DNA of 64,000 nucleotides from NCBI RefSeq assembly GCF_000621165.1, contig NZ_JHZA01000007.1, positions 248,001-312,000 of the forward strand, in the 5' to 3' direction. The position numbers and the translations under genes are program-made. Source of the DNA: Enterovibrio calviensis DSM 14347 (GTDB taxonomy: Bacteria > Pseudomonadota > Gammaproteobacteria > Enterobacterales > Vibrionaceae). The notes below the pieces were generated by a model that ran no database searches, had not been told where the DNA came from, and worked only from the letters and a program-made list of their open reading frames with translations. This document shows positions 59,884 through 64,000 of this stretch, one piece after another; the stretch's first letter is position 1; every line of letters begins with the position of its first letter.

Positions 59884-60507
59884 TTACTTTGTCGACGCTT
59901 CAATGAATGCAGGGCGTTCGCTGATCTTGCGGTGCCACGCCAACAACGCGGGCAATGATTCATCAAGGTGTAAATCAAGATTTTTCATAAAGCCACAAAG
60001 GACATACGCCGTGATGTCTGCAACCGAGAATTTGTCTCCCGCAACATAGGGCGACGTTGTTAAGCGTTTTTCCAACTCAGGCAAAAACTCTTCCAAACGT
60101 TGTTTGGATTCCTTTCCCCATGCTTCCACGCAACGCTCTCTGTCTTTGTAAATGCCAGTTATGTTTCTAAAGGCTTGAAAAGCAGCATAAAGCCCTTGGA
60201 ATTCAACAATGCGATTCCACATTTCGACTTGTCCGATAGCCAGCGCATCTTCTCCAAACAAGTGATGGTTTGTTGGAAACGCCGCATCAATGTAGCGACA
60301 GATAGCAACAGACTCACAGATGGTTGTTTCATCGTCGAGTTCTAGCAAAGGGATTTTTCCGTTGGGGCTCTTCGCTTTAAATTCGTCGGTAACATTCTCT
60401 CCACCGCGAATGTCCACATCGACTCTTGGGATCTCAATGCCTTTTTCAGCAATGAAAAGGCTAACTCTGAGTGAATTGGGTGTGGGCGCTTTCTCGTACA
60501 ACTTCAT
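59884..60507 (-). CDS. Glutathione S-transferase
   Basis: The 207-residue protein has an N-terminal thioredoxin-like glutathione site (LYEKAPTPNSLRVSLFIAEKG, then NGKIPLLELDDETTICESVAICRYID, where the cis-Pro is followed by ES) and a helical C-terminal domain. I start it at the ATG at 60507, preceded by AGGGA. Its conserved motif DKFSVADITAYVLC is the N-capping box of GSTs. It is a lone gene between the HTH gene and pdsS. The substrate is unknown. Confidence 0.9.
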   Translation of the reverse strand: MKLYEKAPTPNSLRVSLFIAEKGIEIPRVDVDIRGGENVTDEFKAKSPNGKIPLLELDDETTICESVAICRYIDAAFPTNHHLFGEDALAIGQVEMWNRIVEFQGLYAAFQAFRNITGIYKDRERCVEAWGKESKQRLEEFLPELEKRLTTSPYVAGDKFSVADITAYVLCGFMKNLDLHLDESLPALLAWHRKISERPAFIEASTK

Positions 60508-60550
60508 AAACATTCCCTGTTTTGATATGCCCTACTCGGGTCGGTCGATC

Positions 60551-62743
60551 TTAAGTGTAAGTCACTGGCAGCAACACGGTCACTATAACGCCATTGTTCG
60601 TCACACGATTGGCGATAGTGAGTTCACCATGGTGGAACTCTGCCACTAAACGCGCAATGTAAAGGCCGAGCCCTAAGTGGGGCTTGTCGGATTTCTGGTT
60701 TTCATCCCTCACTGAGACCATGGAAGCCAGCAATTGATTTCCCATATTTTCGGGTAAATTTGGCCCAAGGTTAGAAACAGTGATGCAAGCGCGGTGTTCA
60801 TGTTGAACCAATTGAATATCAATCGGTGTGTTGGGGGTTCTGAATTCGACAGCGTTGGCGATGAGTTTGTCGAGTAACTGAGCGACGTATTCAGGCACGC
60901 CCTCCATGTCATATTGCCCATCTTTAATCCGCAAAGTGAATGCTTGGTCAGGGTAGGCGTATTCATAGCCTTGTACACAGCCGGTAATGACTTTATCCAG
61001 TGGGAAAGACGTCTTTTCCGCATGCTCAAAGCTTTGTTCAAGCCTCGTTGCTTCGGTCATGCTCGACAGTATGGTTGCGAGCCTTGCCACGCCTTCTTGA
61101 GCGCGGTCGATATAACGGCGTTGGTCATCATCCGTATTGACAAAAGCAAGGTTCTCTAACGAAGAACGCACAACAGCGACCGGTGTCCGTAACTCATGGG
61201 AAAGACTGGATGACATCTTCTCAAGGTAACTGTTGTAATCAGAAAGCCTTGTGACCATGGTTGATAGCGTGCGCGAGAGATCGCCGATCTCATCTTTGCT
61301 TTCGATTGGATCAAGTTGATGGCGAACACGCCCCTGTGGGTCAATGGCACTTTCAGCATCGTCTCTTAGCCTTCTAACTCGCTTGGAAATATGTGAGCCA
61401 AATAGGAGCAAAACCACTACACCGGTGCAAATAACTGCCAATAGTACATTGAACAATTGCTCAAGCGCTTTATTGCGAAGCGTCGTGATGCCATTCGTGG
61501 TTTCTTCGACGACCACAGCACCAACAATGTCATCGTTGACTTTTATTGGATACGCGGCAGAAAGGATCATTGCACTTTCGTCGTCGGTCACTCGCCAGTT
61601 AGCATAAGGGCGTCCAATAAGCGCTTGTTGTACTTCAACACCTCTAAACACAGCGGCATGCTGCATTGCATCAACAATGTGTTCCGGTGGGCGCTGCAGT
61701 ATTTGATAGTAAAGCGGGTTAAGGATCTCAGTTTGTATCCATCCCATTACCCCTGAAGGAGGATCCTGGTACTTTATGGTTGTCTCCCACACCCCATTAG
61801 CAGACTGTAAATCTCCCGTCTTTGCGAGCACACGACCATGTTTGTCCACCGCCCAAACCCGTGAATTACCGTCGTTGATTTTGGTGAGAACCCGCTCAAG
61901 ATCCGGAGAGGGAACGAGTAAGGTGCCGAGTGTTTCCGCACTGCGCGGATTAGACGTTGCCAAGATGGTTTCAATATCTCTGTTAAAAGGGTCGACAACG
62001 TTGTAATAGGCAAAGCTGAGTTTTTCGCCCACCAGCCAATCGGGGATTGCTAATTCAATGGCATAACCATTGGCCGTCTCTTGCCACCAAGCACGAATCG
62101 CTTCAGAGGGAAAGTTGTGTTCGGTATCTGAAATTGTTGTTTCAATCAAAGAAACATCAGCGGGCCCGCTTTGTGCGGCTGAAATAGCGTAACGCTTGAA
62201 CTCACCCTCTAACGTGGTGAGCGTGACCATAAGATGGTCATTGCGATCGATGCGCAGCGAGCCACTTCGACGCATCACGGGCGAGCGGTCTGCGACATCG
62301 ACGAGAGCAAAGATCTCATCGCCATCACTGGTGAGCGTGAGATCAAAATTCAAGTCATCAGAGCGATAAGGAGAGCGACTGAATATGACGTTGTCTTGCG
62401 CATAATTGTGTTTGTAGGCTTGGTAGCGATCCCAATCTAGGGTTGAACCATCGATATCAATGTGAGACTGAAGTGCCACCGCATAGAGATCTTTGCCTCT
62501 CTCTAAGCGTGGCTTTGTCGCTAATTGGCGTTCAAATAACTCGGGTTGTTGATTGAGTGACATGGAAAATGCACGCGCCGACCCCATGAGTGTTTGCTCT
62601 TGCCCTTGGCGAAGCACATTCTCTAATTCCCACACATAGTTGTAACCAATGAACGGCAACAATAGAAGTAGACCTGAGAGCAGGACGACTTTGGCGCGAA
62701 TGCCGGACACCCAGCGCCAAACCTGTTCTATAAAGAGTCTCAT
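60551..62743 (-). CDS. pdsS: Sortase-system sensor histidine kinase PdsS
   Basis: PdsS is the membrane sensor of the proteobacterial dedicated sortase system. The 730-residue protein has a first transmembrane helix (residues 18-36) and a large periplasmic region of roughly 380 residues. A second helix (about 430-452, QLFNVLLAVICTGVVVLLLFG), a HAMP region and an HisKA domain follow, with the phospho-accepting His near 515 in SLSHELRTPV. An ATPase domain ends with GLGLYIARLVAEFHHG. The periplasmic part has a CBM9-like pattern (DIDGSTLDWDRYQ, then FALVDVADRSP, then YAIELAIPDWL). The stop of pdsR overlaps its start (ATGA). Symbol by family recall. Confidence 0.78.
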   Translation of the reverse strand: MRLFIEQVWRWVSGIRAKVVLLSGLLLLLPFIGYNYVWELENVLRQGQEQTLMGSARAFSMSLNQQPELFERQLATKPRLERGKDLYAVALQSHIDIDGSTLDWDRYQAYKHNYAQDNVIFSRSPYRSDDLNFDLTLTSDGDEIFALVDVADRSPVMRRSGSLRIDRNDHLMVTLTTLEGEFKRYAISAAQSGPADVSLIETTISDTEHNFPSEAIRAWWQETANGYAIELAIPDWLVGEKLSFAYYNVVDPFNRDIETILATSNPRSAETLGTLLVPSPDLERVLTKINDGNSRVWAVDKHGRVLAKTGDLQSANGVWETTIKYQDPPSGVMGWIQTEILNPLYYQILQRPPEHIVDAMQHAAVFRGVEVQQALIGRPYANWRVTDDESAMILSAAYPIKVNDDIVGAVVVEETTNGITTLRNKALEQLFNVLLAVICTGVVVLLLFGSHISKRVRRLRDDAESAIDPQGRVRHQLDPIESKDEIGDLSRTLSTMVTRLSDYNSYLEKMSSSLSHELRTPVAVVRSSLENLAFVNTDDDQRRYIDRAQEGVARLATILSSMTEATRLEQSFEHAEKTSFPLDKVITGCVQGYEYAYPDQAFTLRIKDGQYDMEGVPEYVAQLLDKLIANAVEFRTPNTPIDIQLVQHEHRACITVSNLGPNLPENMGNQLLASMVSVRDENQKSDKPHLGLGLYIARLVAEFHHGELTIANRVTNNGVIVTVLLPVTYT

Positions 62744-63435
62744 TTGCTGCTGTCCCAGCGATAGCCCATGCCATAAACCGTATCGATGAAATCAAAATCT
62801 GTATCAAGGGCGATGAACTTTTTACGAATGCGTTTGATGTGCGATGTGATCGTACTGTCATCCACCACCACGTGGGCTTCTTGCATCAGATCTTGACGGC
62901 TACGAACATGCCCAGGGCGTTTCGCCATGGCATGAACTAACCAAAATTCGGTGACAGTGAGATCAACCGTGTGCTGATTCCATTTGACTTGCATGCGATT
63001 CAAGTCGAGCGTGAGATTTCCTCGTTCCAGCAAAGACTCACTGTCAGTGGCTGACTGTTTCAACAACTCGCTTCTGCGGAAAAGTGCAGCAATACGCGCC
63101 ATCAAATGCGGCAGGCTGATGTCTTTGGTGAGGTAGTCGTCAGCGCCCATGCGTAGCCCAACGACCGTATCGATATCACTGTCTCTGGCGGTAAGAAAAA
63201 TGATTGGCAGCGTGGCCGACATCGCGCGCACTGTTTGGCAAAGTTGAAACCCACCGTCAATTTCATCAGCAAGGCCAATGTCGATAATGGCTAAATCGGG
63301 TAAACGCTGTTTAAAGCCGTCCTCAGCATCGTGCCTGTTAGCATAAGTAGAGACGGCGTAACCTTGCTTTCTTAATACGTCCGCGTAGTTCTCACGGATA
63401 GCGGGTTCATCTTCTACGATGGCAATACGTTTCAT
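62740..63435 (-). CDS. pdsR: Sortase-system response regulator PdsR
   Basis: PdsR is the OmpR-type response regulator partnered with PdsS. The 231-residue protein has a receiver domain (AIVEDEPAIRENYADVLRKQ, with phospho-Asp near 52 in IIDIGL and Lys in YLTKDIS) and a winged-helix DNA-binding domain (VDLTVTEFWLVHAMAKRPG, then IRKKFIALD). It overlaps pdsS by four bases and is divergent from pdsO across 223 bases that carry phased GCCA repeats, a likely operator. Assignment to the sortase family rests on the whole gene set. Confidence 0.8.
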   Translation of the reverse strand: MKRIAIVEDEPAIRENYADVLRKQGYAVSTYANRHDAEDGFKQRLPDLAIIDIGLADEIDGGFQLCQTVRAMSATLPIIFLTARDSDIDTVVGLRMGADDYLTKDISLPHLMARIAALFRRSELLKQSATDSESLLERGNLTLDLNRMQVKWNQHTVDLTVTEFWLVHAMAKRPGHVRSRQDLMQEAHVVVDDSTITSHIKRIRKKFIALDTDFDFIDTVYGMGYRWDSSK

Positions 63436-63522
63436 TTTTACTCAGATAATCAACCACAAGATGATTTGACTATACCTGAAAATGAAAGCGGTAAAAGGCC
63501 TTGAAAGCGTTTAACCGCAAAA

Positions 63523-63590
63523 GCCATTTTTTTGCCACATTTGCTCGTCACATTGCCATTTTTGCTCCCATTACATGCCACTTTGACTTG
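63523..63590 (+). promoter_or_regulatory. Phased GCCA repeats between pdsR and pdsO
   Basis: GCCA(C/T) boxes begin at 63523, 63534, 63555 and 63577, spaced 11, 21 and 22 bases apart, that is, by whole helical turns. Two of them are the start of the 15-base near-repeats TTGCCACATTTGCTC and TTGCCATTTTTGCTC, 21 bases apart. This is the usual look of a tandem operator for an OmpR-family regulator and could be bound by PdsR to drive pdsO. Confidence 0.5.
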
Positions 63591-63658
63591 TTTTAATGAC
63601 CTCATCGAAACAACAACTGGGTACATACCCAATCCCTACTTAGGATGAGGAAAGCACA

Positions 63659-64000
63659 ATGAAAAAATTCAACAAAACAATGCTAGCGATTTCTTTGGTG
63701 GTTCCAATGTCAGTATCTACCGCATTTGCCAACGACCAACTGACTCACGCCGAGCGTGACAGCACGGTTGAAATGATTGGTTTCGGTGGTGGCGCGGCAT
63801 TCGGTGCAGTTGTCGGTGGCCCTGTTGGCGCAGTGGCTGGCGCGTTGGTAGGCGGTTTGATTGGTCAAATCGCGAGTTCAGACAAACAAAATGTGGCGCA
63901 AGAACAAATCATCGCCGATATGCACGAAGAAAATGTTCAGTTAGCCACTTACCGAGATCTTTACGCGAACAATGAATTAGAACTCGCCAATCTGAAAGCA
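63659..64000 (+). CDS. pdsO: Sortase-associated OmpA-family protein PdsO (N-terminal part)
   Basis: The gene starts at the ATG at 63659 after GAGGAAAGCACA and runs off the right edge after 114 codons. A signal peptide ends at about residue 24 (SVSTAFA). The next segment is a glycine-zipper membrane-associated region (GFGGGAAFGAVVGGPVGAV, then AGALVGGLIGQIA) followed by a coiled coil. The known full-length family has a C-terminal OmpA domain, which would lie outside the window. It is divergent from pdsRS, and the sortase and its LPXTG-type target are expected further right. Assignment by gene order and N-terminal pattern. Confidence 0.7.
   Translation, partial: MKKFNKTMLAISLVVPMSVSTAFANDQLTHAERDSTVEMIGFGGGAAFGAVVGGPVGAVAGALVGGLIGQIASSDKQNVAQEQIIADMHEENVQLATYRDLYANNELELANLKA

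Follow-up and report, generated by a model that had tools for sequence, protein, structure and literature searches.

The right-hand edge of the window, a stretch of 64,000 nucleotides from Enterovibrio calviensis DSM 14347 (C4:248001-312000 of a 5.5 Mb draft genome in 28 contigs), encodes a sensor histidine kinase, an OmpR-type response regulator and, divergently, the beginning of a third protein; these are the pdsS, pdsR and pdsO genes of the proteobacterial dedicated sortase (pds) system, a rare Gram-negative system for protein attachment (Table 1). This naming, proposed in the original prediction from the DNA letters, is upheld by profile searches: TIGR03785, TIGR03787 and TIGR03789 all match above their cut-offs, the last with the full-length PdsO (241 amino acids, L002:4660-5385; 217.6 bits against a cut-off of 152.2), whereas the fragment inside the window scores 65 bits because the window edge truncates the gene. 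The claimed arrangement is also correct, with pdsR upstream of pdsS, the two overlapping by 4 bases, and pdsO pointing away from them. Beyond the part of PdsO that was visible to the earlier reader lies a C-terminal OmpA-like domain (PF00691, 70.2 bits). As for the features that had been proposed for this protein, the N-terminus reads, by eye, as a putative signal peptide, and the glycine-zipper profiles give matches that are below their cut-offs (22.6 against 28.9 and 22.3 against 25 bits). PdsS combines a predicted CBM9-like sensor (approximately residues 85-279), a second extracytoplasmic segment, a transmembrane helix, a HAMP-like region (20.7 bits, below the Pfam cut-off of 25), and HisKA and HATPase_c domains that both exceed the cut-off; its closest named counterparts are those of Enterovibrio norvegicus FF-33 (84%) and then Grimontia indica AK16 (78%). 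The next-best NCBIfam models are CreB for PdsR (177.4 bits, below the cut-off of 273) and CreC for PdsS (146.6 bits, below the cut-off of 356). The genes of the window are ordinary members of the known pds system.

The sortase and its target, which the original prediction had placed just right of the window, are on another contig. No sortase or target was found in the 15 kb to the right, read as open frames of 110 amino acids or more, and whole-genome searches with TIGR03784, PF04203 and TIGR03788 located neither near the right side of the window. What does exist is the expected pair itself, far outside the 5 kb proposed for it (and outside 10 kb): on contig C3, a TLVTC sortase gene directly follows, after a gap of 2 bp, the gene for a VIT/vWA protein that matches TIGR03788. 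The sole TIGR03784 match in the genome is at C3:425935-426450, and all five pds families are present in the genome. A second sortase was sought with PF04203, which yields the known enzyme and one chance-level match (E 0.18). Contig C4 continues for approximately 149 kb past the window, and the two halves of the system sit far from the ends of contigs of 461 and 593 kb, such that they would be at least approximately 310 kb apart even if C3 and C4 were joined end to end. Instead of the left border of a compact cluster, the locus is the regulatory half of a pds system that is split in the Vibrionaceae. The genes in the 15 kb to the right, as read, encode GNAT-type, Ada-like repair, HD-GYP, rhodanese-like, RavA-ViaA and ABC-transporter proteins, of which RavA (504 bits, below the cut-off of 681) and ViaA (over its cut-off) were the ones checked by profile. 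The RavA-ViaA pair lies at L002:12874-15987, approximately 7.5 kb right of pdsO; its vWA protein was considered as a sortase target and rejected, as it belongs to this known pair.

Table 1. Features of the split pds system and neighbouring gene (window positions unless a contig is given; aa, amino acids)
Feature	Position	Strand	Evidence or remark
pdsS, sensor histidine kinase, 730 aa	60551-62743	-	TIGR03785, 794.9 bits (cut-off 612.2)
PdsS residues 64-279, predicted CBM9-like beta-sandwich	61907-62554	-	AlphaFold model of the domain alone; first ~20 residues poorly modelled
pdsR, OmpR-type response regulator, 231 aa	62740-63435	-	TIGR03787, 411.5 bits (cut-off 335.7)
Candidate PdsR box, GCCATTTTTTTGCCACATT	63523-63541	+	pdsR-pdsO intergenic region, facing pdsO; 136 bp from the first base of the box to the pdsO start codon
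Wider run of half-site-like units containing the box	63523-63574	+	10-11 bp steps; read from the sequence
pdsO, 5' part, 114 of 241 aa	63659-64000	+	Runs 385 bp beyond the window
Sortase (class GN)	L003:13846-14514 (contig C3)	-	TIGR03784, 194.5 bits (cut-off 158.25); TLVTC
VIT/vWA target, 714 aa	L003:14517-16661 (contig C3)	-	TIGR03788, 677.5 bits (cut-off 551.65)
Glutathione S-transferase-like gene (as read)	59884-60513	-	37 bp downstream of pdsS, same strand

To place this arrangement in context, we surveyed 150 family genomes (with thresholds of E<=0.001 for the sortase, 1e-120 for pdsS and 1e-35 for pdsO) and 369 genomes at the class level (pdsS again at 1e-120); the family is taken to be the Vibrionaceae, the genus of the window Enterovibrio/Grimontia, and a further genus (g7) Photobacterium. 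In the family, a sortase match is present in 21 genomes (19 over the cut-off), and pdsS and pdsO in 56 each, with 55 of the 56 pdsO-positive genomes also encoding pdsS. All 21 genomes with a sortase match possess pdsS (Fisher p 6e-11, uncorrected for relatedness), and 35 of the 56 with pdsS yield no sortase match. The two genes never come within 240 kb of each other on one contig: in 19 of the 21 genomes they are on different contigs, and in the remaining two they share a contig at distances of 242 kb and 1.35 Mb. The latter case is G026; in G051, an assembly of three contigs, pdsS is on a contig of 1.76 Mb and the sortase on one of 3.76 Mb, and with these two included all 12 other genomes of the window's genus with a sortase match are split. 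At the 20 target loci fetched, with flanks of up to 1.5 kb, no match to PdsO or PdsR was detected. Across the sampled family the split is the rule, and it is no fault of assembly.

At the class level, 55 genomes have a sortase, 64 have pdsS (28 of these without a sortase) and 36 have both; in 19 of the 36 the genes lie within 15 kb, in one they are 871 kb apart, and in 16 they are on different contigs, perhaps in some cases due to short contigs. Among the named genomes, a compact divergent order, pdsS-pdsR on one side and pdsO-target-sortase on the other, is found in Shewanella, Agarivorans, Aliiglaciecola, Paraglaciecola, Glaciecola and Psychromonas. In the tree of sortases, the family and Psychromonas are nested in a group with Shewanella and Alteromonadaceae (support 96/84); the grouping of the family with Psychromonas itself reaches 96/79, short of the level starred by the tool, and the bootstrap is unsettled. 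We infer from these data that the compact order is the older one and the split is derived. The sortase of Psychromonas antarctica (L324) groups with the family sequences though its cluster is compact. Apparent ongoing loss is seen in the 26-residue sortase remnant of G084 (L025), one of the 21 genomes counted above, a short sortase frame in G067 (L024), and a target in two pieces in G016 (L104/L109) and G081 (L105/L108). In G006 (L188), pdsO is on another contig than pdsS, no pdsO match is seen beside pdsR, and the sequence box described below is kept before pdsR; this may be a three-way split. In E. calviensis, a corticovirus-like (PM2-type) provirus, recognized by P2 coat protein domains and a G2P-type replication protein, occupies L003:1092-10431 on C3 (limits drawn by eye), approximately 3.4 kb from the sortase gene.

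The two halves of the system share a repeat in their upstream regions. The same words were first seen when pdsR-pdsO intergenic regions and target upstream regions were set side by side; de novo motif search in 39 non-redundant pdsR-pdsO intergenic regions (of 51) returned tGCCATTTTTTTGCCACAa, and a separate search in 17 non-redundant target upstream regions (of 20) returned GCCAcAtTT.GtCttaATT. The exact pattern GCCAYWWTNNNGCCAYWWT, drawn from the pdsO and target sites, has two copies in the 5.5 Mb genome, one before pdsO (window position 63523) and one before the target-sortase pair (C3:428717), against none for the reversed control; over 18 genomes of the genus it gives 34 sites against 4 in the control. 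A model trained on the pdsO sites assigns 32.3 bits to the window site, which belongs to the training set, and 12.3 bits to the next best of 127,518 positions; the target site of the same genome scores 15.0 bits, and 17 of the 20 family targets score at a level reached by at most 1 of 200 shuffles. The three targets that are missed (L088, L089 and L105) have arrays that start with a 10-bp rather than an 11-bp step, and a flexible half-site model recovers a three-unit array on the target-facing strand in all 20, a result reached by 0 of 100 shuffles. Outside the family, de novo search upstream of pdsR in 26 loci gave ttGCCA.atTTcgTCA.aat, with a score of 335 against 160-182 in five shuffled sets (8 search starts against 60). 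Nine compact clusters from named genomes have a recognised pdsO between pdsR and the target (L320, L321, L322, L324, L325, L328, L329, L333 and L340); an array of at least 12 bits is present in four of them, always before pdsO and never before the target, and a simpler two-unit pattern places a box before pdsO in L325, L328 and L333. Other exact-pattern sites in Photobacterium (17 of 38 rows, away from pdsO and the target) were set aside as chance-like, since seven of the nine that were opened fall within frames of at least 130 amino acids. Judging from these patterns, the distant target-sortase module carries, or has gained, a putative control site of its own, beyond mere relocation, which suggests that the two halves are still switched on together; because the target has its own array after the split, it can be argued that co-regulation was kept by selection. 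The position, orientation, rarity and co-occurrence of the repeat point to PdsR as the protein that would bind it.

A third gene with the box, creD, was first encountered among the exact-pattern sites of the genus and had no part in either the model or the first pattern. With at most one mismatch to a stricter pattern, GCCAYWWTNNNGCCACAWTT, the genome of E. calviensis contains three sites, before pdsO, the target and creD, against none in the control. The three boxes face their genes, and their distances to the start codon are 136 bp for pdsO, approximately 105 bp for the target (counted from an ATG preferred over the listed GTG) and 108 bp for creD; each is followed, as seen by eye, by a TTTAAT or TGTAAT hexamer at a similar phase. 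The 108 bp read of the creD promoter contain a GCCA-type array and lack a TTCAC repeat. Over the 18 genomes of the genus, 47 sites fit the stricter pattern, compared with 11 for the control. By our own tally 13 of the 47 are at pdsO, 9 at targets, 9 at creD, 3 at a gene for a beta-helix protein and 13 elsewhere; such sites are found in all 13 pds-positive genomes and in none of the five pds-negative ones. Six of the 13 sites elsewhere were opened, L311 (at 1009) and L315 among them, and four others of these six fall inside open frames. The creD gene was found in 20 of the 150 family genomes, 9 in the genus of the window and 11 in others. All nine genus copies are preceded by the box (11.2-22.9 bits), and eight of them pass the half-site model at p<=0.05; the 11 others do not exceed 2.3 bits on the gene strand or 9.0 bits on the opposite one. 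A creC-like H-box lies within 1.5 kb of 10 of these 11 genes and of none of the nine in the genus. The boxed beta-helix protein, seen in three genomes of the genus (L306:2141-3907, L307 and L308; G075, G031 and G055), has a choice-of-anchor Q domain and looks secreted; it was considered as a second sortase substrate and rejected, as two complete copies are without a sorting tail and the third runs off the stretch.

What PdsS might sense was approached through its fold. Pfam detected no sensor domain in the full-length protein, sequence searches of the PDB hit the kinase part for the most part, and the sensor profile gave nothing convincing. Because a fold search with the whole PdsS model was dominated by kinase domains, the sensor was modelled separately, from 38 homologues, with a mean pLDDT (the confidence score of the model) of 91.0. 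Its best PDB matches are the CBM9 modules 1i82 (E 1.9e-7), 7nwn (1.5e-6) and 7nwo (2.2e-6), with TM-scores, by query length, of 0.54-0.61 for the predicted model; two chains of 4jpq, a putative carbohydrate-binding protein, come next, and these matches together range from 1.9e-7 to 1.1e-5. Among the 38 homologues, 30 match the Pfam family CBM9_1 at E<=1 (best 2.7e-6); no other Pfam family matches more than two of them. The predicted sensor fold is CBM9-like, with haem-binding relatives, discussed below, matching too.

The target of E. calviensis ends in LQSGLGS, a hydrophobic stretch and RR, and the literal LPxTG motif is absent. The 12 tails printed for the genus have LQSGLGS (11) or IQSGLGS (1), followed by a run of hydrophobic residues and then a few basic ones; three Photobacterium tails have LAQTGT or LAQTST and one has LAQTGL, and tails from other families show LPQTAT, MAKTAT, YPATAT and similar words. 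As judged by these tails, the genus of the window does not keep the literal LPxTG, though it retains the enzyme. An LPKNNG in the target was examined as a sorting motif and discarded, as it varies among relatives, whereas [L/I]QSGLGS is kept in the 12 printed tails. The sortase-bearing genomes of the genus also encode VIT/vWA paralogues with GlyGly-type tails (L110-L115; six printed), and, on the evidence of the tails, related proteins of the same cell may be handled by two sorting routes.

Taken together, we consider it probable that a CreBC-like envelope-stress system controls a split sortase module in trans, through PdsR acting at shared arrays. According to this scenario, PdsS in the inner membrane would sense a ligand via its CBM9-like periplasmic domain, most simply a glycan freed by a disturbed cell wall or surface polysaccharide, and would phosphorylate PdsR. 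PdsR would bind tandem half-sites of the GCCAYWWTT type, spaced by 10-11 bp steps, the arrays before pdsO, the distant target-sortase operon and creD being its candidate sites. The output would be an envelope set comprised of the OmpA-like, probably peptidoglycan-binding PdsO, the exported VIT/vWA target, the sortase and CreD. The sortase would cut the target at a C-terminal Q-[S/T]-[G/A] and join it to an acceptor. Within this chain of events, DNA binding by PdsR, activation, the ligand and the acceptor are all inferred.

The same observations could be accounted for otherwise. The proximate concern, that the genes are truly adjacent and were separated by the assembly, starts from the 28-contig state of the draft, and we give it practically no credence given that both halves lie deep in large contigs, that the same split is found in 12 other genomes of the genus, including the three-contig G051 and G026, where 1.35 Mb separate the genes on one contig, and that none of the 20 target loci, with flanks of up to 1.5 kb, shows a match to pdsO or pdsR. 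A more serious alternative is that there are two independent modules, with PdsSR-PdsO being a self-standing envelope two-component system, the sortase and target being regulated otherwise, and the NCBIfam name being transferred from species whose genes happen to be adjacent. The numerous pdsS genomes without a sortase match (35 of 56 in the family and 28 of 64 at the class level) and the presence of pdsS in 55 of the 56 family genomes with pdsO speak for this explanation. However, the array before the target in 20 of 20 family loci, the confinement of the exact pattern in the E. calviensis genome to pdsO and the target, and the presence of pdsS in every sampled family genome with a sortase match speak against it, and we hold the independence of the modules to be quite unlikely. 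It is even less likely, in our assessment, that another OmpR-type regulator, for example a CreB, acts at the repeat, with PdsR uninvolved. Indeed, the box precedes creD, a classic CreB target, and the 11-bp step is the same as in the cre tag TTCACN6TTCAC, as given in PMC4689548, but the half-sites are GCCAY rather than TTCAC, the 10 family creD genes that lie beside a creC-like gene have no box on the gene strand, the motif precedes pdsR itself in other families, and the stricter sites are absent from the five pds-negative genomes of the genus.

With respect to the signal, the kinase could sense haem or the redox state instead of a glycan, in which case the regulon and the split would be unchanged. 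This possibility stems from the matches that follow the CBM9 modules and 4jpq in the fold search, the haem-binding subunits of ethylbenzene dehydrogenase (2ivf_C, E 6.4e-5) and of nitrite oxidoreductase (7b04, E 4.1e-4); given that the top three matches are CBM9 modules and that CBM9_1 stands alone among Pfam families in matching a substantial part of the homologues, we regard it as unlikely, albeit less so than the regulatory alternatives above. We return, then, to glycan sensing by PdsSR and control of both halves by PdsR, for which several points must be entered on the debit side, the haem-type matches among them. The PdsS of E. calviensis itself scores 13.6 bits against CBM9_1 (PF06452), below the cut-off of 23.4 (E 0.063). 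At the class level, a pdsS match at 1e-120 is missing from 19 of the 55 genomes with a sortase, so that a sortase can occur without the PdsS kinase. The genomes counted are relatives, and the rows are not independent. Both genome search patterns were written from sites already seen, the stricter one after the creD sites had been seen, and they show rarity rather than independent discovery; the half-site model was trained on 26 loci outside the family from a seed picked after the motif was seen. The latter model gives the pdsO array 11.5, less than the 13.0 and 12.5 that it assigns to two unrelated places in the window; taken by itself, the extension over 63523-63574 is therefore weak. The exact pattern is absent at pdsO in 11 of 31 pdsS-positive Photobacterium genomes, and among the named contiguous clusters 13 of 25 reach 12 bits, with none shown by Marinobacter and several betaproteobacterial clusters. 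Within the creD set, one genus gene (L242) just misses the half-site test (p 0.059), one gene outside the genus (L235) passes it with a TCCA-type array, and 4 of the 13 pds-positive genomes of the genus lack creD.

Comparison with known systems helps to delineate what is specific to this one. With the pds system as defined by NCBIfam (TIGR03784, TIGR03785, TIGR03787, TIGR03788 and TIGR03789), the genome of E. calviensis shares all five families, a TLVTC sortase beside a VIT/vWA target, and a divergent pdsR and pdsO with a common intergenic region; it differs in the two distant loci, the operator-like array at the target promoter, [L/I]QSGLGS in place of LPxTG, and the same box before creD. The compact clusters of Shewanella, Agarivorans and Paraglaciecola have the pdsS-pdsR order and sortases that group with those of the family, but their genes are adjacent and, in those where an array was found, it lies before pdsO and not before the target. 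The affinity with CreBC/BlrAB and CreD is apparent in the next-best models for PdsS and PdsR, the direct repeat with an 11-bp step, the box before creD in the genus of the window, and the envelope-related output proposed here, whereas the scores below the CreC and CreB cut-offs, the GCCAY half-sites, the CBM9-like sensor domain and the tie to a sortase module set PdsSR apart. The GlyGly-CTERM/rhombosortase system likewise handles VIT/vWA proteins with a C-terminal sorting signal, according to PMC3237569, but its enzyme and signal are unrelated to those of the sortase.

A study of Shewanella oneidensis (PMC8176591) reports that srtA is twofold down with riboflavin and that its deletion leaves the current density unchanged. 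According to a review (PMC12114352), pdsS and pdsO of Shewanella algae have been linked to the integrity of the membrane and to resistance against beta-lactams, in keeping with a role in envelope stress. In the open-licence literature, searched by title or the start of the abstract, we found no account of a PdsR operator or regulon. The new findings are the split, the shared repeat, the creD box, the CBM9-like sensor predicted by modelling, and the many genomes that have pdsSR-pdsO yet give no sortase match.

These findings connect a sortase system to the cell envelope, and the candidate operator, the proposed regulon of three promoters and the sensor fold make the 'when' of Gram-negative sortase action directly testable. 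They also bear on annotation, as the NCBIfam name 'sortase system histidine kinase' would label many genomes without a sortase match, as in the majority of the pdsS-positive members of the family. More tentatively, and with appreciable doubt, we propose that PdsSR, rather than being a regulator dedicated to the sortase, is an envelope-stress system of the CreBC type that senses glycans and is widespread in marine Gammaproteobacteria. The sortase-target pair would be one of its outputs, an optional one that was moved, provided with its own operator or lost on many occasions, and in Enterovibrio/Grimontia PdsSR might have captured creD from CreBC. If this is the case, attachment by a Gram-negative sortase would be a response to damage of the cell wall or the surface glycan.

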